Positions 15,759-46,914 of a DNA stretch of 48,037 nt are shown in pieces; position 1 is the first letter of the stretch, and every line of letters starts with the position of its first letter. The stretch spans positions 1 through 48,037 of IMG/VR virus record IMGVR_UViG_3300022562_000539; one strand, written 5' to 3'. This DNA comes from a virus. The notes beneath the pieces are model-generated. The model saw only the letters and a list, made by a program, of their open reading frames with translations, did no database searches and was not told the origin of the DNA. Made by a program: the position numbers and the translations under genes.

Positions 15759-16517
15759 TTATTTAGCTAGCCATAGCTTGAGTTGTTGGTTTAACCATTG
15801 CACACCGGCTGGAGTTAAGCAGCAAGTGAATCTCTCTTTCCCACCTATGCTCACTCCCGCTGGTTTTAACACAAAGAATCCTGAGTCAACATAACACTGG
15901 TATGGCTGGTGTGACCTGTCTTTGAGGCGATAGATAACTTTCTTATCGCGCAACAGTTGAAACAAATCGTTGCGACCAATGCAGCCTAGGTCTTTGGCAA
16001 AGTCGCCTATTAACACTAGTCCGTCACGCTCGATGAAGTCATCAGCTAGGATAGCTTTTGGTTTAAGCTGCTGCACCTCTAGCTGTGCTGCTTCAAGTAA
16101 CCTAGCTGAGGCTTGGAGAGCACGAGCCATTAGCATCTCATCAGATTCTTTAGCTATAGGCGACCAGCCACATACGTTTTGTATCATGACCCTTAGCCCC
16201 ACATTTGCCAACGCTTTGTACATACGTTTAGCTTCTTCAGTAACTCTTGCACCCGTATCAAATGCGTAGTACTCAAGTATTACAGCTAGAGCAGTATCAG
16301 GTATTCCAACCTCAGAAAACCTATCACCCTCAAACCCATGCTCCATAAGCTTTTGAGATAGTTTCGACTGAGTTTTCCTATCACTCGAAAAAGCCTCAGT
16401 TAAGGTAGGTTGTGCTACACCCGCTAGCTTAGCAGCGCCACGTATGCTGCAATACCCGATACCGTTGCTGTCTACTTTCAGGTCACTTTTGATTGATGCC
16501 AATGTAATCTGTGTCAT
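15759..16517 (-). CDS. KilAC-type antirepressor/regulatory protein
   Basis: This 252-residue protein probably binds DNA and regulates transcription. The N-terminal part (GYCSIRGAAKLAGVAQPTL, residues about 20-38) is helix-turn-helix-like. The middle (DTGARVTEEAKRMYKAL, VGLRVMIQNVCGW) is a type I recall from cyanobacterial and cyanophage proteins. The C-terminal 100 residues (LVLIGDFAKDLG, FVLKPAG, CCLTPAGVQWLNQQL) match the KilAC antirepressor C-terminal domain. A paralogue with the same order is at 45834-46607. A CGAGGA ribosome-binding site precedes the ATG. Antirepressor domains occur in lytic as well as temperate phages. Confidence 0.7.
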   Translation of the reverse strand: MTQITLASIKSDLKVDSNGIGYCSIRGAAKLAGVAQPTLTEAFSSDRKTQSKLSQKLMEHGFEGDRFSEVGIPDTALAVILEYYAFDTGARVTEEAKRMYKALANVGLRVMIQNVCGWSPIAKESDEMLMARALQASARLLEAAQLEVQQLKPKAILADDFIERDGLVLIGDFAKDLGCIGRNDLFQLLRDKKVIYRLKDRSHQPYQCYVDSGFFVLKPAGVSIGGKERFTCCLTPAGVQWLNQQLKLWLAK

Positions 16518-18414: not shown

Positions 18415-18945
18415 TTAGCTGAAGTATTCATTATATACACTGTCAACTTCCAGCCATTCGATTAATGTGTTGAGCCTGTGCCACGTTGCCTCGCAGTATA
18501 CATTACCGTACTGTTTGCATGTATCAGGGTGGAACTTGGGAAGATTGCGCTTGATGTGCTTGGCTGCTGCTTTCTTGCCCTTCTCACGTTGGATTTCGAT
18601 AACCTCTTGCGCTATTACATCAGCTTGCGCCTCACTGTTAGCATTGTACTCTACCTTTGGTGCTTGTTGCTCAGGTTCAGGCTCAGGCTGCTGCTGTGTT
18701 TGTGCTGACTCTAACTCTTGGATGCGTGCTGCTTGCTTGGCTATCGTAGCCTTGGCTGCTGCTAGCTCATCACGAAGCATCTGCAGCTCATCCATTTCTT
18801 GTGTTTGTTGCTTGCTGTCTGAGTTGCCTGTAATACGGTTGTATTCTGCTTGTAATGCTGCCTTCGTGGCGTTGAGCTTCACTTGTAGTACAACTCCGTT
18901 GTTGCGGTAGTTTTTGAGAGCAGACTGAAGTTCTTTGTAAGACAT
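18415..18945 (-). CDS. Coiled-coil protein with possible J-domain-like end
   Basis: The 176-residue protein has an N-terminal helical region (SALKNYRNNG, residues about 7-40), a coiled coil (about 47-85), a Gln/Glu/Pro linker, and a C-terminal helical pair. The C-terminal segment has KKAAAKHIKRNLPKFHPDT followed by a second helix (EATWHRLNTLIEWL). An HPD tripeptide between two helices is the signature of J domains, so a degenerate DnaJ-like function is possible. A GTG at 19002 could extend the frame, but it lies upstream of the predicted transcription start from the promoter at 18993-19021, so ATG 18945 is chosen. Confidence 0.55.
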   Translation of the reverse strand: MSYKELQSALKNYRNNGVVLQVKLNATKAALQAEYNRITGNSDSKQQTQEMDELQMLRDELAAAKATIAKQAARIQELESAQTQQQPEPEPEQQAPKVEYNANSEAQADVIAQEVIEIQREKGKKAAAKHIKRNLPKFHPDTCKQYGNVYCEATWHRLNTLIEWLEVDSVYNEYFS

Positions 18946-18992
18946 ATGTTTAACCTGTGTTTGCGTTTGGTGGTTTGCTTTTGACCCCTCAA

Positions 18993-19021
18993 ATATAACC
19001 ACAAGTTTGCCCTAGCGTCAA
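18993..19021 (-). promoter_or_regulatory. Leftward promoter
   Basis: On the minus strand TTGACG (19016-19021) and TTATAT (18993-18998) are separated by 17 bases. Transcription would start near 18986, upstream of the ATG at 18945. The candidate operator copy 2 lies directly upstream. Confidence 0.65.
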
Positions 19022-19085: not shown

Positions 19086-19191
19086 GAGCATAAATGCTTA
19101 GGTATAAATACCTGAGTATAAATGCCTATGACAGTTACTGAAGTGGCATAGGTATAGTAACCTAGGTATAGTTGCCTAGGCATAAATGCTT
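19086..19191. repeat. Iteron array: 3+3 palindromic 14-mers
   Basis: Six 14-base near-palindromic units follow the consensus RGGTATARWTRCCT. Three are contiguous (19086-19099, 19100-19113, 19114-19127) and three contiguous after a 22-base gap (19150-19163, 19164-19177, 19178-19191). Examples are AGGTATAAATACCT and AGGCATAAATGCTT. Such arrays are typical of initiator-binding origins, centromere-like partition sites or multi-operator repressor sites. The 19003-19287 interval holds no gene. Confidence 0.85.
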
Positions 19192-19287: not shown

Positions 19288-19893
19288 CTAGCTATTTAAT
19301 TCACCACGAAGGTAAGAAACTAAACGTTCCGCTGTTTCGAGGGTATGATGCACCTTTAGCCCATTAGCTTGTGCTGACATAAAAACACAATTAGACTGAG
19401 TATAACCTAACTCTGGTATATGACGGTCAACGTGTGCATTTGAACCTTCGCCAAAATAGACAAGAGGTATATCAAGCATAGGGCAGGAGGGAGTAGCGAG
19501 GGCTAGCTTTATTAAAAAGTCAACTGTCAAATCAAACGGGATACCTTTAACACTTGCTCTATTTGATATATCCCTGTGTCGCTGCTTCATGGCTGCTGTT
19601 AACAAATCGTCTGTTTCTTTTACTTTAACCCTGCTGATAAGGCTTCTAGGCGCTATAGGTTTCTTTGTCCGTTTACGCTCCAGTTCGCTAAGATATCTCT
19701 CAAAAGTCCTAACCCTTCTGTACTCTCTAGCTTTGTTTTCAGCTACTTTAATCTCAGGCTCTTTCTCCTGCTTCCTTTTCATCCGGGTGTAGCCTAAATT
19801 AACCAAGCGCTTTTCTTCATCTGATAACCTGTAAGTTGCTTCTGCTTTTACGAAAGCAGCGTATTGGTCTAACGTTAATTGAACTACTTGCAT
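19288..19893 (-). CDS. HNH-type endonuclease-like protein, second copy
   Basis: The 201-residue protein has a basic N-terminal half (KRLVNLGYTRMKRKQEKE, arginine-rich to residue 90) and a C-terminal nuclease-like half. Elements are CPMLDIPLVYF, AHVDRHIPE, GYTQSNCVFMS and ANGLKVHH, the same order as in the HNH gene at 6197. The DRH in place of DRID and loss of the tryptophan suggest divergence, so activity is uncertain. It has its own extended -10 promoter (19923-19928) and an AAAGGTGG ribosome-binding site, typical of an autonomous mobile gene placed between operons. Confidence 0.6.
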   Translation of the reverse strand: MQVVQLTLDQYAAFVKAEATYRLSDEEKRLVNLGYTRMKRKQEKEPEIKVAENKAREYRRVRTFERYLSELERKRTKKPIAPRSLISRVKVKETDDLLTAAMKQRHRDISNRASVKGIPFDLTVDFLIKLALATPSCPMLDIPLVYFGEGSNAHVDRHIPELGYTQSNCVFMSAQANGLKVHHTLETAERLVSYLRGELNS

Positions 19894-22106: not shown

Positions 22107-22541
22107 ATGGGAAGCAGTAAGAAACCAAAGAAAGTAGCGTACACAGACCCAACGGTAGCAGCCAAACAGAAGATGACTGAAATGTCGAACGCTTACCAAA
22201 GTAACCTAGCCAACATTCAGCAGCAGTCGCAGCAGTCTATCGAACAAATTAACCAGAGTAACCAAGTTGCCCAGCAAGCGCTACAAAAGCAACTGCAACA
22301 AGCAGAAGCGGACAAAGTGAACTACCAGCAGTCGCTGCAAGCTTACCTGCAACAGTTAAACACAATGCAGACAAACTACAACAATGCTCTAGCTGCGAAG
22401 GATGCAAACACTAAAGCAGCACAGGACTTGCAAACGAATGAGATTAACTCAAACAACCTAATGAACAACTTGCTGGCGTCTTCTGCCTTAGCTAAGCAAG
22501 GTTTTGCCCAGCGTACCCGTCGTAGAGGTGTGATAGCATGA
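22107..22541 (+). CDS. Gln-rich protein before terminase, possible small terminase subunit
   Basis: The 144-residue protein is basic at both ends, with a long Gln/Asn-rich coiled coil in between (about 20-120). It starts after an AAGGAAA site and overlaps terL by the ATGA arrangement. Position directly upstream of the large terminase suggests the small subunit, which often oligomerises by coiled coil. However, no helix-turn-helix is evident and the composition also resembles virion core proteins such as the product of 8804, so this is tentative. Confidence 0.5.
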   Translation: MGSSKKPKKVAYTDPTVAAKQKMTEMSNAYQSNLANIQQQSQQSIEQINQSNQVAQQALQKQLQQAEADKVNYQQSLQAYLQQLNTMQTNYNNALAAKDANTKAAQDLQTNEINSNNLMNNLLASSALAKQGFAQRTRRRGVIA

Positions 22542-24364
22542 GTCGCTCTGTAAGCTTAAGCTCACTTCAAAGTTCCCCACTTGGCAGAGGTGCGCTGCTG
22601 CAATCGACAAAGCAGGAGGTAGCTAAGATGCAAGTCCAAAGGCGACGTACGACATCAAGCGGCAGCAGTGAGTTAGCGGTACGCGCACTCAGTGACATTA
22701 CAGCCTTTGCAGAACTCATTGGCTTTCATGGTGGCTGGTCTAACTTCAGTAGCTGTCATGAAGAGTTAGCTAAGTTTATTACCAAGCCTCAAGTAGACCC
22801 AGAGTGTCAGCAGAGGCTAGCGTTTGAAGGGGACGAATACGAAGGTCATTTGCGCCGTATGGTACTAATGCCACGAGGTCATTTAAAGTCTACTATCGGC
22901 ACTGTCCTCTATGTGTTATGGCGTGTGTATAGGAACCCTGAGATACGTGTGATGGTTGGCTGTAACCTACAGTCTTTGGCTTACTCATTCATACGAGAGT
23001 TGCGGTCGCATCTGGAAAACCCAGAGCTACAAGACGTATGGAACAAGCGCCCCCACCTCAAAGGCTCACTGATACCAGCGATACAGAAGAAATCAAACGC
23101 TCGTAACTTTAACCTAGACACAGACGCAGAAGACCGAAAGGTGATATGGAATAACGTAGCGCTACAGGTAGTACGCGAAGGGAAGTTTAAAGAGCCTACG
23201 ATATACGCCACTAGTGTAGGAACTACCATCACTGGGATGCACTTCGACCTGATTATCCTTGATGACCTTGTAGACTTTCGTAACGTAGAGAGCGAGCAGA
23301 AAAAGCAACAGGTAGAGGAATGGATAGCTGACGTTGAGTCCGTCGTTAACCCGCCTAGGCTTGTGCAGATAGAGTCTGAATTCATTGTGTTTAATGATAT
23401 CCTAGGTGGAGAGGTGCTCGTTAACGGCACAAGATACGCGGTAGACGATTACTATGGACAAGTTATCGAAAAGCAGCAAGAGCTAGGTTACCATGTACAC
23501 TCTCGCAACATATACAGCAACGGTAAGAATTCAGATGATGGCTACTTGTGGAACGAGCGCTACAACGACAAGGTCGTTACTAGCTTACGTTCGCGTTTGA
23601 GTCCAAGACGCTTTAGCTCACAGTATCTAAACACAGTGTATGAGAAAGATGCTCACCTGTTTAACGTAGGTGCGATAGCTATCGTAGAAGACTCAGCAAT
23701 CTTTAGGAACAATGGCAGATTGTGTATTAGACTTCCGAACGGCAGAGTAGAAATACTTCAGCCTATTATCGCTCTTGACCCTGCATTCAGCACTAGTAAA
23801 ACTGGTGACGATTGCGGAATAGTAGTCGGTAGCAAACTTAAAGACGGTAGTTTGGTTGTCATTGACGCTGCTGTGGACAGGATGACCGCTGCTGAGGTTG
23901 TAGAGAAGGTAAGAGACTTTGCAGCCAAGTATGATACGTTGCGGATGTACTCCGAGTTAAACGGGGTAGGGGCATTAGTGCCTGAGATATTTGCACCTCA
24001 AGTATTTAAGGTTAACGGTAGAAGCTTAATCGTTAACACTCACTACGAGCAACGACCAAAAGAAAGCAAGATACAGGGTGTGCTTGAGTTACCTATTAAC
24101 TCAGGTAAGTTTATCTTTTGTGAACGGGTAAAAGGTCAGGAAAGGTTATGGAAGCAGTTGTCCAACTATCCCGGCGTAAGGCACGATGACTTTATGGATT
24201 CTCTAGTAACTCTCTACGAAAAAGCCACAGCTTCAAGAGAGGTATACAAATATGAGACTCAGTTGACAGAGTTTAACGGAGTACCACTGAAACTAGACTT
24301 TAGAAAGGATAACAGAAGGGAGGGATACTTAGGTGGCTATAGGGCAGTACAACCAGTCGAATAA
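22538..24364 (+). CDS. terL: Terminase large subunit
   Basis: This is the DNA packaging motor ATPase and nuclease, 608 residues. The ATPase domain has VLMPRGHLKST (Walker A-like, about residues 105-115; the deviant PRGHxKS form of T7-type terminases) and LIILDDLVD (Walker B, about 236). The nuclease domain has IIALDPAFS (about 410), MYSELNGVG and HDDFMDSL (about 549), placing its acidic residues. It is coupled to the upstream gene (ATGA) and overlaps the portal gene by 32 bases. The T7-like type would normally cut at concatemer junctions and produce direct terminal repeats. Confidence 0.9.
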   Translation: MSRSVSLSSLQSSPLGRGALLQSTKQEVAKMQVQRRRTTSSGSSELAVRALSDITAFAELIGFHGGWSNFSSCHEELAKFITKPQVDPECQQRLAFEGDEYEGHLRRMVLMPRGHLKSTIGTVLYVLWRVYRNPEIRVMVGCNLQSLAYSFIRELRSHLENPELQDVWNKRPHLKGSLIPAIQKKSNARNFNLDTDAEDRKVIWNNVALQVVREGKFKEPTIYATSVGTTITGMHFDLIILDDLVDFRNVESEQKKQQVEEWIADVESVVNPPRLVQIESEFIVFNDILGGEVLVNGTRYAVDDYYGQVIEKQQELGYHVHSRNIYSNGKNSDDGYLWNERYNDKVVTSLRSRLSPRRFSSQYLNTVYEKDAHLFNVGAIAIVEDSAIFRNNGRLCIRLPNGRVEILQPIIALDPAFSTSKTGDDCGIVVGSKLKDGSLVVIDAAVDRMTAAEVVEKVRDFAAKYDTLRMYSELNGVGALVPEIFAPQVFKVNGRSLIVNTHYEQRPKESKIQGVLELPINSGKFIFCERVKGQERLWKQLSNYPGVRHDDFMDSLVTLYEKATASREVYKYETQLTEFNGVPLKLDFRKDNRREGYLGGYRAVQPVE

Positions 24365-41103: not shown

Positions 41104-41691
41104 TTAGTATCCTGCAATCTCCGCTACCGATTCCAAGAGGTTCTTATGCACAGCGTTAACCGTCATACGTAACTTTTGCACTTCAGCTTTCAGTTGCTCA
41201 TTCTCTCCGATATAGTAATCGTTCGATTTTTCCAGTTCTGCTCTCTTAAGTTCGAGGTCAGTATAGTACGTTAGGTTTCTCTTGTAGTTGCTTTCGAGTT
41301 CTTCTATACGCTCTTGCTTCTTCATGTTAAGTTCAGCTAGTTGTCCGTTAGTAATCCTAACTGACTTTAACTCAGAATTGAGCACAAGATTTTCGTCGCA
41401 GGCTTCATTGTAGAGTCTCCTGAAGTCCTCTTTGACCATCGTCATCTCTTCAAGCTCGCTGAAGATTTCGCACAGAGTACTAAAGGTGAAAGTTTGAAGC
41501 TTTAGAATGTTGTGGTGAGATTTACGCAGCGCTCGGTTATCGGTGATAAGCTCAAGGTTATGGTTCAAAGCTTGAGTATACCTGTCCAAGTCTTTATCAG
41601 ACTCACGCTCTAGTTGTTCTATGTAGGCTGCTTGTTTTACAATCGTTGAGGCGACTGCTCCTTGTATCCAACGTCTGATTGCTTTAAACAT
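41104..41691 (-). CDS. Coiled-coil protein (195 aa)
   Basis: The protein begins with an amphipathic helix (MFKAIRRWIQGAVASTIVKQ) that could lie on a membrane. It continues almost entirely as coiled coil with heptad patterns (IEQLERESDKDLDRY, LNMKKQERIEELES). No enzymatic motif is visible. A TAGGAGT ribosome-binding site precedes the ATG. It may be a scaffold for the neighbouring membrane proteins, but that is inference. Confidence 0.6.
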   Translation of the reverse strand: MFKAIRRWIQGAVASTIVKQAAYIEQLERESDKDLDRYTQALNHNLELITDNRALRKSHHNILKLQTFTFSTLCEIFSELEEMTMVKEDFRRLYNEACDENLVLNSELKSVRITNGQLAELNMKKQERIEELESNYKRNLTYYTDLELKRAELEKSNDYYIGENEQLKAEVQKLRMTVNAVHKNLLESVAEIAGY

Positions 41692-41723: not shown

Positions 41724-42056
41724 TTAACCGAAGTGATAAAAGTAAACGTCTTCTAACTGAAACCTAGTGAACTTCTGATACTTAGGAAGCCATTTACCAC
41801 TGTCTTTTAATATCGTCACGAGTTCTTTTTTGCTCAAGGCTTTCGTTTGTGATAAAGGCTTCATTTGAGATGGTTGTACGTGTACAGGCGTCTCTGATTC
41901 AGCTACACTAACATCAGCTGACAAATTAGGAACTTCGGATACTTCAAAACTATCGCAAGTGGGTTCTTCGGCAACAGTGGTACACTTAGACTTAGGTGAA
42001 TAAGTTAACCAACATAACGTCCAAAAAACAAGAGTAAAAAGGTAGACAGACAGCAT
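41724..42056 (-). CDS. Membrane-anchored protein with SAP/HeH-like tail (110 aa)
   Basis: Residues 3-19 (SVYLFTLVFWTLCWLTY) form one transmembrane helix. A 60-residue Ser/Glu/Pro linker leads to a basic C-terminal region (LSKKELVTILKDSGKWLPKYQKFTRFQLEDVY, described in parts) resembling helix-extended-helix SAP or Rho-N-like DNA-binding domains. The protein could tether DNA to the membrane. Its promoter (-10 at 42087) overlaps a 3+3 repeat array. It is the first gene of a leftward operon that reaches primase-helicase. Confidence 0.55.
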   Translation of the reverse strand: MLSVYLFTLVFWTLCWLTYSPKSKCTTVAEEPTCDSFEVSEVPNLSADVSVAESETPVHVQPSQMKPLSQTKALSKKELVTILKDSGKWLPKYQKFTRFQLEDVYFYHFG

Positions 42057-42086: not shown

Positions 42087-42092
42087 ATTATA
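42087..42092 (-). promoter_or_regulatory. Leftward extended -10 promoter
   Basis: The minus strand reads TGTTATAAT. A -35-like TTCCAC 18 bases upstream lies in the GGAACY repeat block at 42103-42129, so binding there would directly affect transcription of the gene at 41724 and those after it. Confidence 0.65.
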
Positions 42093-42102
42093 ACACAGAT
42101 AG

Positions 42103-42193
42103 CGGAACTTGTGGAACCTTCGGAACTAAAAGTTACAAATGCTGTTTTTCATGTGTTTTAGCCCCTTTAGTTCCGTTAGTTCCGTTAGTTCCG
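42103..42193. repeat. Inverted 3+3 array of 9-mers
   Basis: Three contiguous 9-mers (CGGAACTTG, TGGAACCTT, CGGAACTAA; 42103-42129) face three identical TTAGTTCCG units (42167-42193). The two 27-base blocks form an imperfect inverted repeat around a 37-base AT-rich centre. The left block overlaps the -35 region of the promoter at 42087. Confidence 0.85.
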
Positions 42194-42197
42194 GTGG

Positions 42198-43637
42198 TTA
42201 CAACCCTTGCTGCTGCGTGGTTACATGTTTGGTTACTAAATTTAGCCCTAGTTCCGTGTATAGGTTTCTGCCTTCCTCGTAACGCCTACCTTCCATGCCC
42301 CAGCCGTCTTTTATAACGCTGCTGATGGACTTGCCGTGAAAGTGAACCATCGTATATCCTATGTAATTCAAAACGTCTCGGTGGTAATCAGCACGAGCGG
42401 CTATACGCCCTAGTTTTTTAAACTGTCGCAACTCTGCCGTATCGTCAATAAGAGCGTAAACGCTTGATAAACTAACCTGTTTCTTACCCTCATCAGGCGT
42501 ATCAAATTCAATAGTAACATGAGCCTCTTGTGTGTTGTCGTCAACCATAGAATCTATCTGATTTCTTAAGCTTTCTAACTCTTGGTTTACTTTTTTATCC
42601 ATCTTCGGTTCCTCTACTTTTTGTACTACTGTCTGCCTGCTTTTAATAGCTGACGTTATCTCTGACCATCCAGGCAGCTTTGCAGGGCTTTCGTCAACTA
42701 AACAAGGTCTAACCATCGCGGCTAAAAGCTGCTCAACTACCTTGTCTCGATTGTGTTTTGTGGCAAGCCTGCCTAAGCGAATAAACGTGATTCCTTCCCG
42801 TAAGTCGCTCATACCTTCAAGCCCTAGCATACGGACTTGTCCACCTTGGGAAAGTAGCCACAGTCTAATACCAACCTTCCTGCACTCCATCAGCAACTGA
42901 GGCATGGTGCTAGCGAAGAACTTTTTACCAAGGTTACTTACAATCGATGGTAGCTCATCAATGTAAACATCCACGTCATCGAAGTTAGTATCACCTTTGT
43001 AATATCGCTCGTAGCGCTCGTTCATCAACACAAGAAGAGCCTTAAGTGTCTGGGCAATAGTTGGCTTAACTTTGACACTTTCGATATCAGCCCAAGTCAC
43101 TTCCTCATCATCTGGTGTACCATAGTTTCTTCCGCCACCTAGCACCGCATTAAATCCAGCGAAGTCATTCGGCTTAGCATGAGGGTGGATGGCATAACGC
43201 TTGTTCGCTTTCAAAACCACGCCAAGGTATTCTGCTAGGGATGTCTTACCTGAGCCAGGTTCACCCATGATGATTACGTTAGGAAATTTGTCTCGGTCGT
43301 TGCCTATGGTGCTGAAGTCAAACCACTCAACGTGAGTATCTTCTACCTCTGCTTCTACTACTTCCTGCTTTGGTAAACCAAATAGCTTACGCTGGCGCTG
43401 AATACCGGAGTTAACCCTGAAGTCTTCGATAGCAGCGTCATTCTCCTTTTGTGTTTTAACGCTAACTTGACCAGCGACAGCTAAAGCGAGAGCACCAAGA
43501 AGAGAAGCTACTTTCGTATTTTCTTTCTGTTGCAATGGCACGCTAGATACTAATCCTACAGCAGCAATTAAACAGATGTAGCCAGTAACTTTGGCTCTTA
43601 TACCCTGAAGTAAATGATAGTAAAACTCTTGGTTCAT
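42198..43637 (-). CDS. Membrane-anchored FtsK/TraD-like ATPase
   Basis: The 479-residue protein is a likely DNA-pumping or coupling ATPase. Two transmembrane segments occupy about residues 12-32 and 42-60. A cytoplasmic ATPase follows with VIIMGEPGSGKTSL (Walker A, about 124), AIHPHAKPNDF, a segment MNERYERYYKG, VYIDELPSIV (Walker B, about 220) and RLWLLSQGGQVRMLG. I recall the same order of motifs (PHAxPxD, RY, DExP, LSQG, LGxEG) in plasmid- or element-encoded ATPases of cyanobacteria. The C-terminal domain (about 395-479) is helical and may bind DNA. The start at 43637 has a GGGAG site. It follows two small membrane proteins with minimal spacing. An unusual gene for a T7-like podovirus. Confidence 0.7.
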   Translation of the reverse strand: MNQEFYYHLLQGIRAKVTGYICLIAAVGLVSSVPLQQKENTKVASLLGALALAVAGQVSVKTQKENDAAIEDFRVNSGIQRQRKLFGLPKQEVVEAEVEDTHVEWFDFSTIGNDRDKFPNVIIMGEPGSGKTSLAEYLGVVLKANKRYAIHPHAKPNDFAGFNAVLGGGRNYGTPDDEEVTWADIESVKVKPTIAQTLKALLVLMNERYERYYKGDTNFDDVDVYIDELPSIVSNLGKKFFASTMPQLLMECRKVGIRLWLLSQGGQVRMLGLEGMSDLREGITFIRLGRLATKHNRDKVVEQLLAAMVRPCLVDESPAKLPGWSEITSAIKSRQTVVQKVEEPKMDKKVNQELESLRNQIDSMVDDNTQEAHVTIEFDTPDEGKKQVSLSSVYALIDDTAELRQFKKLGRIAARADYHRDVLNYIGYTMVHFHGKSISSVIKDGWGMEGRRYEEGRNLYTELGLNLVTKHVTTQQQGL

Positions 43638-43638
43638 T

Positions 43639-43977
43639 TTACAAACTCCCGATAACAAATCCTAAGATGACGATAGATAACCAAACAAAAGCATTGAACC
43701 TTCGCTCGTGTGTACTTAGGTAAGAATACAACGCCATCGATAACGGAGCTAACACAATAAAGATTGCGATTGAAACAAACACGCTGCTGTAAGTTGCGGC
43801 GATTATCCGCACCAGTTTAAAAACTAGCGACGAAAAGCACAACCAACTAATACACTTCAAAACAGAAGATACTTTACTCTCGTTGCTGTCTTTAACCTCT
43901 CGCCACACGCGACTGGTGCTGTCGCCTAATATGTGACCTGTGTTTTCTACTTGACGTGGCTCATCTGAGTATCCCAT
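43639..43977 (-). CDS. Membrane protein with three helices (112 aa)
   Basis: After a 40-residue polar N-terminus there are three hydrophobic segments: CISWLCFSSLVFKLVRIIA, VFVSIAIFIVLAPLSMALY and FVWLSIVILGFVIGSL. No family is recognisable. A GAAGGAGAA site precedes the ATG. The gene overlaps the preceding one by 17 bases and abuts the ATPase gene, so the three are probably translated together and may form one complex. Confidence 0.65.
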   Translation of the reverse strand: MGYSDEPRQVENTGHILGDSTSRVWREVKDSNESKVSSVLKCISWLCFSSLVFKLVRIIAATYSSVFVSIAIFIVLAPLSMALYSYLSTHERRFNAFVWLSIVILGFVIGSL

Positions 43978-44188
43978 TTGTATTCTCCTTCGGTTGTGTT
44001 ATGTAAACGTTTCCTGTCGTTCCTACGTTAAACTGTGGCTGTATGCATGGCGGTTCCTGCTTAGTCAACAAATAACCAATCACCACAGATTGAGCTAGAA
44101 AACCAAACGCCAATAAACCAGCGCCATATTCTCTAGTTTCTTTTACTCGACCATACGCGACTATCCGTCTACCAAAACCTTTGCTCAT
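43961..44188 (-). CDS. Small membrane protein, first gene of ATPase module (75 aa)
   Basis: The protein has a basic N-terminus, one transmembrane helix (GAGLLAFGFLAQSVVIGYLL, about residues 22-42) and a polar tail of about 30 residues. It has no visible Shine-Dalgarno sequence; the start codon lies three bases after the T run of an intrinsic-terminator-like hairpin. A strong promoter (44256-44284) lies upstream. Translation may thus depend on hairpin formation or on leaderless-like initiation. Confidence 0.55.
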   Translation of the reverse strand: MSKGFGRRIVAYGRVKETREYGAGLLAFGFLAQSVVIGYLLTKQEPPCIQPQFNVGTTGNVYITQPKENTNGILR

Positions 44189-44196
44189 AATAAAAA

Positions 44197-44216
44197 CTGC
44201 CAGCTTGCGCTAGCAG
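44197..44216 (-). terminator. Intrinsic terminator/attenuator between promoter and start codon
   Basis: On the minus strand the arms CTGCTAGC and GCTGGCAG (one G.U pair) close a GCAA tetraloop, followed by TTTTT. It lies between the promoter at 44256-44284 and the ATG at 44188, so it can attenuate the membrane-ATPase operon, or end RNR read-through. Confidence 0.7.
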
Positions 44217-44255
44217 CCTCGTTCACAACATGTGCAACTTTTTACTCTTGCACCT

Positions 44256-44284
44256 ATTGTAACTTATCAGTTATCGTTTGTCAA
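44256..44284 (-). promoter_or_regulatory. Strong leftward promoter of the ATPase module
   Basis: TTGACA (44279-44284) and TACAAT (44256-44261) are separated by 17 bases on the minus strand. It begins two bases after the RNR gene ends. The predicted transcript starts near 44249 and meets the hairpin at 44197-44216 before the first ATG. Confidence 0.8.
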
Positions 44285-45833: not shown

Positions 45834-46607
45834 TTAGGCTATCTTTGACGACAGCCACTCAGCACCAGCTTTGGTAATCAACGTGGAAAACTCAGTGTAG
45901 ACCAAATCGCCACGATTGTTTTTCACATCAGTCATCTTCTCAACGAACTTACCGCTATTAATGTGTTTAGCATAGGCTCTGTTTCTTCGCTTGCCGTTGC
46001 CTTGGTATTCACTAAACATAATACCTAAGTCAACCAACTTTCGTGTCAAGGTTGTGCGTCCTATGCCAATAGCACCAGCGAAGTCATTCAACTTAATCAA
46101 ACCAGCAGGGTCAGCTATTGTGTCCCATGCAATGGCTCGTGGCGTTAGGTCGCTTACTTCAGTCACTAAGGTATCAATCTCTTGCTGTGCATTTTCTAAA
46201 GCTATCTCTGCTTCCAACCAACGTTGAGCCATCTCTCGTCGCGTTAGCTTTTCCTCTGGCTTAGCCACTGCTGTTGAAACTACACTATAGCCAGCAAGCT
46301 GATGAAGATACATCCGAACACCAACTTGAGCGAACTTAACTAACACATCAGGAGCATCTTTTGAGAGCCAATCAACAATGGTTGTTTCGTCAATTAACCG
46401 TCCCACTCGGAACCCTTTGACAGTAGGCATTTCGATTGTTTTAGCATCTGTTTTTCGTCCCACTCGGTCGCGTACTGTTGACCTTGCAACTCCACTCATG
46501 CGAGCATAACCATTGATGCTTGTAAAGCTTTCTCCGGTCGCTGTGTTGACGTAAACCTCAATGCCGTTGTTTTCGTAACGTGTGATGTTAGCAGTGTTAT
46601 CTTGCAT
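45834..46607 (-). CDS. KilAC-type antirepressor/regulatory protein, second copy
   Basis: The 257-residue protein has an N-terminal segment with SINGYARMSGVARSTVRDR (helix-turn-helix-like, about residues 22-42). Its middle (VKFAQVGVRMYLHQLAGYS) aligns with the equivalent part of the protein at 15759. The C-terminal KilAC-type domain has LIKLNDFAGAIGIGRTTL and LVYTEFSTLITKAGAEWL. The start at 46607 has a CAGGAGT site; a longer frame to 46646 has none. It overlaps the preceding gene by 11 bases. Two KilAC paralogues in opposite parts of the map may control different operons. Confidence 0.7.
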   Translation of the reverse strand: MQDNTANITRYENNGIEVYVNTATGESFTSINGYARMSGVARSTVRDRVGRKTDAKTIEMPTVKGFRVGRLIDETTIVDWLSKDAPDVLVKFAQVGVRMYLHQLAGYSVVSTAVAKPEEKLTRREMAQRWLEAEIALENAQQEIDTLVTEVSDLTPRAIAWDTIADPAGLIKLNDFAGAIGIGRTTLTRKLVDLGIMFSEYQGNGKRRNRAYAKHINSGKFVEKMTDVKNNRGDLVYTEFSTLITKAGAEWLSSKIA

Positions 46608-46914
46608 CTTTAACTCCTGTTTGATAACCTTTGTATTCAGTCTCAAGTTGCTGTAGTTGGCGTTGCTGGTAGCTGCTGTTGCTACCTGTGAAGATTAAGC
46701 TTACTGTAGTGATAGTGCCTACGAAGGCGATAGGTAAAAGAATCAACCACGCTTTGTTAGGTAGGTAAGGCGCAGCTTCGTTAGCAGGAGTTGGGGTGTA
46801 AACTTCCTCTTGTGTGAGTGCTTGCGTTGCTGGCTTCGGTTTTGGTTGAGTTTTGGCAGCTTCTGTGGAGGCTGCTTTTTTATTGGCTTCGTTAGCTTCT
46901 TGTGGCATTTGCAT
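46597..46914 (-). CDS. Single-pass membrane protein (105 aa)
   Basis: A Pro/Ala/Lys-rich N-terminal half (about residues 1-52) precedes one transmembrane helix (AWLILLPIAFVGTITTVSLIF, about 54-74) and a short Gln-rich tail. There is no ribosome-binding site before the first ATG, which lies just after a terminator-like hairpin (46920-46937). An ATG six bases downstream is an alternative. The tail overlaps the start of the KilAC gene. Function unknown. Confidence 0.55.
   Translation of the reverse strand: MQMPQEANEANKKAASTEAAKTQPKPKPATQALTQEEVYTPTPANEAAPYLPNKAWLILLPIAFVGTITTVSLIFTGSNSSYQQRQLQQLETEYKGYQTGVKDAR

Follow-up and report, generated by a model that had tools for sequence, protein, structure and literature searches.

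Three tightly packed membrane-protein genes of a podovirus, the last of which encodes an FtsK-like ATPase, are best read as a TraB/Spd-like, membrane-anchored translocase of double-stranded DNA that would spread or maintain extrachromosomal elements along cyanobacterial filaments and that would have been captured by phages. The reading is drawn by analogy with the plasmid systems of Streptomyces, and we give it a probability of about 0.5. The evidence comes from the architecture of the module, its relatives on plasmids and in other phages, short repeats clustered at the ATPase 3' end, and the distribution of the ATPase among genomes.

The window, by which we mean the whole stretch of DNA analysed, is a single virus record 48,037 bp long, whose exact direct terminal repeat of 144 bp makes it very probable that the genome is complete. 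The terminase of the window shares 34-38% identity with those of the Saffermanviridae Arthronema virus TR020, Pf-WMP3, A-4L, PP and LPP-1, and the matches of its portal, capsid, scaffold and tail genes agree with a podovirus gene set of that type. Placed by homology and not by formal demarcation, the window is thus a Saffermanviridae-related podovirus, and not the standard T7-like phage that had been supposed. The recorded hosts of its nearest terminase relatives are filamentous cyanobacteria, and the host of the window phage is probably a filamentous cyanobacterium as well. Most Saffermanviridae are reported to be capable of lysogeny although they have no identifiable integrase (phage Dor1 genome note; PMC11812291). 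No integrase was found among the window ORFs scanned, and two genes of anti-repressor type are present. The product of one of them (15759-16517) is BstA-like in its N-terminal part and carries a KilAC (ANT) domain at its C-terminus, and a second ANT protein is encoded at 45834-46646; both are lysogeny-type regulators in a podovirus. The window also contains a 21-bp unit in tandem (237-317; 3.9 copies at 98%) within the ORF at 157-603, and two adjoining tandem arrays with a 14-bp period (19090-19184) between the ORFs at 18415-19002 and 19288-19893.

The module and its surroundings consist of the following features, in which all transmembrane segments (TMs) of module proteins were called by hydropathy alone:

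44284-44256, minus strand: sigma-70-like promoter TTGACA-17-TACAAT (11/12 match), upstream of gene 1
44220-44193, minus strand: terminator- or attenuator-like hairpin, 12-bp stem followed by T5 (a U-run)
43961-44188, minus strand: gene 1, 75-aa one-TM protein (ORF and hydropathy; small one-TM genes recur upstream of relatives' ATPase)
43639-43977, minus strand: gene 2, 112-aa three-TM protein (ORF, hydropathy and the relatives' three-TM profile)
42198-43637, minus strand: gene 3, 479-aa FtsK/HerA-type membrane ATPase (from the ATG) with two TMs
42103-42256, both orientations: clt-like repeat cluster, with three tandem TTAGTTCCG (42167-42193) and AGTTCCG at 42251, 42121 and 42103
42087-42115, minus strand: promoter-like site TCCACA-17-TATAAT with extended -10, for the downstream gene set, at the repeat cluster
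41724-42056, minus strand: 110-aa protein with a hydrophobic N-terminus, a possible accessory candidate (ORF and hydropathy)
41104-41691, minus strand: 195-aa coiled-coil-like protein

The ORFs and hydropathy bear out the three tightly packed membrane-protein genes of the original prediction, all of them on the minus strand: genes 1 and 2 overlap, and gene 2 ends 1 nt ahead of the ATPase ATG. The attenuator-like hairpin is equally real (z = -3.5 for the region); it is followed by TTTTTATTATG, whose ATG is the start of gene 1, so that hairpin and U-run abut the start codon. The strong promoter assigned to the module stands in part, as an 11/12 sigma-70 match does lie ahead of gene 1, but matches of this type are no commoner over the region than in shuffled sequences (7 against 8.3 expected). 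Searches of PADLOC, NCBIfam and Rfam returned no family for the module.

In the ATPase, both TMs (residues 17-35 and 42-60) lie N-terminal to a motor core of about residues 100-330, which contains the Walker A motif GEPGSGKT (125-132) and is followed by a disordered linker (337-434) and an HTH-like C-terminal segment (438-465). In the AlphaFold model, residues 110-260, which make up most of the core, reach pLDDT 71-93, with the linker poor and the C-terminal end intermediate; the HTH-like helices belong to a low-confidence part of the model (pLDDT about 60-78) and have no PDB match. The best PDB fold match of the protein is the FtsK motor on double-stranded DNA (6t8g, E 4.8e-7), whereas at the sequence level Pfam FtsK_SpoIIIE (PF01580) scores 16.9 bits, below its 24-bit cut-off, and NCBIfam TraB gives no match. 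The window ATPase is therefore an FtsK-like motor by fold, and by sequence no member of TraB. Across the family, ATPases end in at least three C-terminal kinds, namely HTH-like (GxxGRxYxxGK), winged-helix-like and zinc ribbon.

Relatives were sought in several collections. Neither the window ATPase nor, in tblastn, four family ATPases matched any of 50,697 phage records, the module is absent from sequenced Saffermanviridae, and scans of viral contigs with the single window ATPase or a 6-row profile, like a genome scan with a 3-row profile, returned no matches; closer subfamily alignments used as profiles did recover family members. On plasmids, the window ATPase directly matches proteins of Annamia, Pseudanabaena, Allocoleopsis, Nostoc and Moorena, and through these relatives plasmids of Tolypothrix, Calothrix and Planktothrix, as well as the 6.4-kb Nostoc plasmid pDU1, are reached. 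The plasmids of Annamia, Planktothrix and Nostoc, pDU1 included, are cryptic ones from filamentous cyanobacteria. Together with the FtsK fold, these homologues confirm the proposed resemblance to FtsK/TraD-like pumps of cyanobacterial plasmids. Family ATPases also occur on chromosome-sized contigs (G175:C3, G345:C1, G133:C1, G074:C1, G347:C1), which suggests integrated elements.

Small membrane genes accompany the ATPase in these relatives. In 14 of 41 family members a small gene with two or more TMs adjoins the start of the ATPase, as against 5 of 106 other large control genes (p=1e-5), and several relatives have an operon that runs, in this order, through regulator-like, soluble, one-TM, coiled-coil, three-TM and ATPase genes. 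In relatives the coiled-coil gene sits between the one-TM and three-TM genes, and the 195-aa protein of the window is a putative counterpart only. When a profile was built from the three-TM proteins of 11 relatives, with the window left out, the 112-aa protein was its sole match among 89 window ORFs (E 0.0006), a modest result in that E becomes 0.02 in a larger ORF set. Since small membrane genes thus recur with the ATPase, the relatives do not show the lack of conservation that the original prediction had named as its weak point. Its other weak point, a clear homology to a lysis or entry apparatus, yielded one weak holin match of the 112-aa protein (phrog_5308, E 0.003) and nothing else. That match, and a weak match of the ATPase core to the terminase family phrog_2666 (2e-8), speak for a phage-specific role of the module in DNA entry, packaging or lysis. 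We regard such a role as very unlikely, as the window has its own portal and endolysin-like genes outside the module and a separate terminase gene (22538-24364), which agrees with the earlier view that the ATPase is not needed for packaging, and as homologues lie on plasmids without virion genes and are missing from sequenced Saffermanviridae. The module could also be the remnant of an inovirus, with an extrusion ATPase of pI/Zot type, a coat-like one-TM protein and a pVI-like three-TM protein, and the sizes of the module proteins resemble those of Ff pVI (112 aa) and a small coat protein. However, neither Pfam nor PHROGs gives a Zot match for the module, no inovirus match was obtained, the best fold is that of FtsK, and the TM order of pI is opposite to that of the module ATPase, whose TMs precede the motor; this idea, already disfavoured, is extremely unlikely and was rejected for want of Zot support.

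The module is not unique to this phage, as other IMG/VR phages and plasmids carry family members. Family ATPases are found in two unrelated kinds of IMG/VR phage, one with a tail sheath and one siphovirus-like. The former, IMGVR_UViG_3300035670_000442 (43 kb; portal, capsid and tail sheath), encodes a 474-aa ATPase, 30% identical to that of the window, whose gene is overlapped by a multi-TM gene of 125 aa. The latter, IMGVR_UViG_3300042312_000581 with two sisters, has terminase, portal, tape measure and RecT genes, and its ATPase is closest to that of a Pseudanabaena plasmid, with which it pairs in the ATPase tree (96/91), while the window and the tail-sheath phage belong to another supported set. 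To explain this topology, carriage must have switched between plasmids and phages at least twice. A further 73-kb IMG/VR contig (L071, 5203-6828), virus or plasmid, has a family ATPase that follows a two-TM gene and is itself followed by a ParA gene.

Carriage by phages as well as plasmids would also suit a membrane-bound ATPase complex that keeps phage or plasmid DNA from entering. Such an exclusion or defence function could account for the weak PADLOC matches that relatives show to mad8, a MADS-system component (E 5e-10 to 2e-8), and for the plasmids co-resident in Annamia, which keep their partner genes while the ATPase core differs. But the window ATPase matches mad8 at E 0.005 only, over a short Walker A stretch, no other MADS parts occur among the module genes or in the neighbourhoods inspected, and both the restriction to filaments and the repeats at the gene's own 3' end would be left unexplained, so that we hold this function to be quite unlikely; the defence idea was rejected, the mad8 matches being all that speaks for it in the searches. 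The Annamia plasmids themselves (L001, 19650-21053; L015, 9001-10365; L016, 1886-3253) share near-identical membrane partners, ATPase N-terminal TM part and C-terminal zinc ribbon, with the ATPase core swapped between two distinct types.

The repeat cluster, which the original prediction had overlooked, overlaps the last 59 nt of the ATPase gene. AGTTCCG is the top 7-mer cluster of the window genome, with 6 copies against a maximum of 4 in 40 Markov genomes, and 6 of the 15 GTTCCG copies in the genome fall within the 154 bp of the cluster. Clusters of at least four copies occur at the ATPase 3' end in 17 of 40 family members, compared with 18 of 161 control genes (p=2e-5), and in the same ATPase genes the 3' end (17/39) exceeds the gene body (1/39) and the 5' end (7/39); the 7-mer and 200-bp settings were picked after the pattern was first sighted, so these p-values are somewhat optimistic, and more than half of the family is without a detectable cluster. 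The motif varies among subfamilies, with 13 copies of CGTTTCA in the tail-sheath phage and 9 of CGGAAC in G074, with GTAGAC/GTCTAC in three genomes and with CAAGACA in Pseudanabaena. Members with like C-terminal ends seem to share motifs (GTTCCG in the window and L050; GTCTAC in L047, L065 and L051). Copies within genes fall in several reading frames and on both strands; therefore the repeats are DNA features, and coding (peptide) repeats of the linker were rejected. It is possible, on balance doubtful, that the repeats merely serve the downstream operon as operator or iteron, or mark a replication site, the module acting without sequence recognition, an explanation which is compatible with the others. 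In the window phage the cluster surrounds and overlaps a promoter-like site and could serve as an operator, whereas in relatives the clusters are located where the ATPase gene codes for the linker, or just past the gene, and the downstream genes vary.

The distribution of the family points to filamentous hosts, for which HetR was used as a proxy; HetR is widespread in filamentous species, non-heterocystous ones included, and at least one unicellular strain has it (PMC2821919). A family ATPase was found in 24 of 386 cyanobacterial species genomes, with a survey profile that was built from filamentous-host copies and could miss diverged members elsewhere. Of these 24, 23 are HetR-positive, against 80 HetR-positive genomes in all 386 (p=2e-16). 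The sole HetR-negative one is a weak match (G352, E 3e-11) which was kept in the counts and is probably no family member, because upstream TM genes are missing. In one order with both kinds of genome, all 41 ATPase-positive genomes (31 of them outside the first genome draw) are HetR-positive, compared with a background of 139/244 (p=5e-12). Among genomes with a DUF3854 plasmid Rep, the ATPase is present in 21/68 HetR-positive and 0/54 HetR-negative genomes (p=1e-6), and at sizes of at least 4 Mb in 21/66 and 0/18 (p=0.004); the association is confounded by clade and genome size, with p=0.06 in the 4-5.5 Mb class alone. Annamia dubia, which carries the module on three plasmids, offers an independent contrast, since its genus is reported to be the only one of the Chroococcales with true filaments (PMC10751749).

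These counts bear on the main rival, a stability device in which an FtsK/SpoIIIE-like pump clears or pulls element DNA at the septum as it closes within the same dividing cell, or places the element at the membrane, with no transfer to separate cells. The FtsK fold and the ParA/ParM and Rep genes in the plasmid neighbourhoods of relatives accord with it, Streptomyces spd genes affect stability too (PMC4170104), and it would work equally well for an extrachromosomal prophage. The association with HetR and filaments is, however, unexpected of a general partition aid, as is the lack of the ATPase in all 54 HetR-negative genomes of the DUF3854 type, and we consider a same-cell role rather improbable.

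The closest known parallel to a spreading machine is provided by the TraB/Spd systems and clt sites of the Streptomyces plasmids pSVH1, pIJ101, pJV1 and pWTY27. Both have an FtsK-like motor with N-terminal TMs (two in pWTY27 TraA; PMC3583192) and small, diverse membrane proteins in one unit with the motor gene, as are the Spd proteins required for intramycelial spread (PMC4170104; PMC12857230). In both, repeats of 7-9 bp lie at the 3' end of the motor gene (tra there, the ATPase here) or next to it, and both occur on small plasmids of multicellular filamentous hosts (PMC4170104, PMC3583192, PMC12857230). In pWTY27, clt comprises 16 bp of traA and the following 159 bp, and its four 7-bp repeats are bound by TraA; the clt of pJV1 has nine 9-bp repeats, and the C-terminal domain of pSVH1 TraB reads 8-bp motifs (PMC3583192). 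Correspondingly, the TTAGTTCCG cluster at the ATPase 3' end, with its family-wide enrichment, is a putative binding site. The module differs in its Gram-negative-type envelope, its occurrence in phages as well, its C-terminal segment that varies by subfamily, and in that transfer is here a prediction; as it has no TraB membership by sequence, it is classed as working like TraB/Spd and not as part of it. With FtsK/SpoIIIE translocases it shares the motor fold, the membrane anchor and a proposed C-terminal DNA reader, and it is set apart by its two N-terminal TMs, carriage on mobile elements, restricted cis repeats and partner genes. VirD4/TcpA coupling proteins are likewise FtsK/HerA superfamily ATPases with N-terminal TMs, and one relative is annotated as 'type IV secretory system conjugative DNA transfer'. 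But no type IV secretion system or relaxase adjoins the module, none being annotated, nor VirB4, in the inspected regions of pDU1, pANN4383.01 and pMIC7113.06, and most plasmid carriers are typed non-mobilizable, on which grounds a coupling protein was rejected. A further comparison is with pDU1 of Nostoc sp. PCC 7524, a plasmid for which just nine genes are annotated: this classical shuttle-vector plasmid encodes a family ATPase and a 49-aa TM gene overlapping its start (L012, 1418-2690), but has this one short TM partner only and no detectable repeat cluster. We found no functional description of its ATPase gene in the literature searched.

In the TraB/Spd-like reading, the ATPase would form a hexameric FtsK-like motor held in the membrane, probably at septa, by its own two TMs and the one-TM and three-TM partners. 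Its C-terminal segment, on a flexible linker, would recognise the 7-9-bp repeats found where its own gene ends, so that the ATPase would act on its element in cis. The motor would then pass double-stranded element DNA through the septum into the next cell of the filament, as TraB and Spd do for Streptomyces plasmids. On plasmids, the module would secure spread and upkeep along the chain of cells; in the window phage, the cargo to be spread or maintained would be a non-integrated prophage or replicating genome. Among the four roles first listed for the module, DNA movement and maintenance of an extrachromosomal state are thus favoured, and exclusion and DNA entry less so. More tentatively, and again by analogy, some cyanophages living as non-integrated prophages might pass DNA from cell to cell along the filament without lysis by means of a plasmid-derived, TraB-like septal pump with a clt-like site. 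This would add a third way for a virus to spread, next to burst and inheritance by lysogens, and one that arose in another multicellular bacterial lineage independently of the Streptomyces system. The literature searched yielded no experiment that demonstrated DNA transfer within cyanobacterial filaments.

If the reading is true, multicellular cyanobacteria would have their own equivalent of the intramycelial spreading machine of Streptomyces, widespread on cryptic plasmids, including the pDU1 replicon of Nostoc shuttle vectors, and phages would have acquired it on repeated occasions. A plasmid gene family that is so far unannotated would be given a function, and integrase-less cyanophage lysogens a candidate way to persist in filaments; the module would also be a directly testable example of viral DNA that passes from one cell to its neighbour with no lysis.
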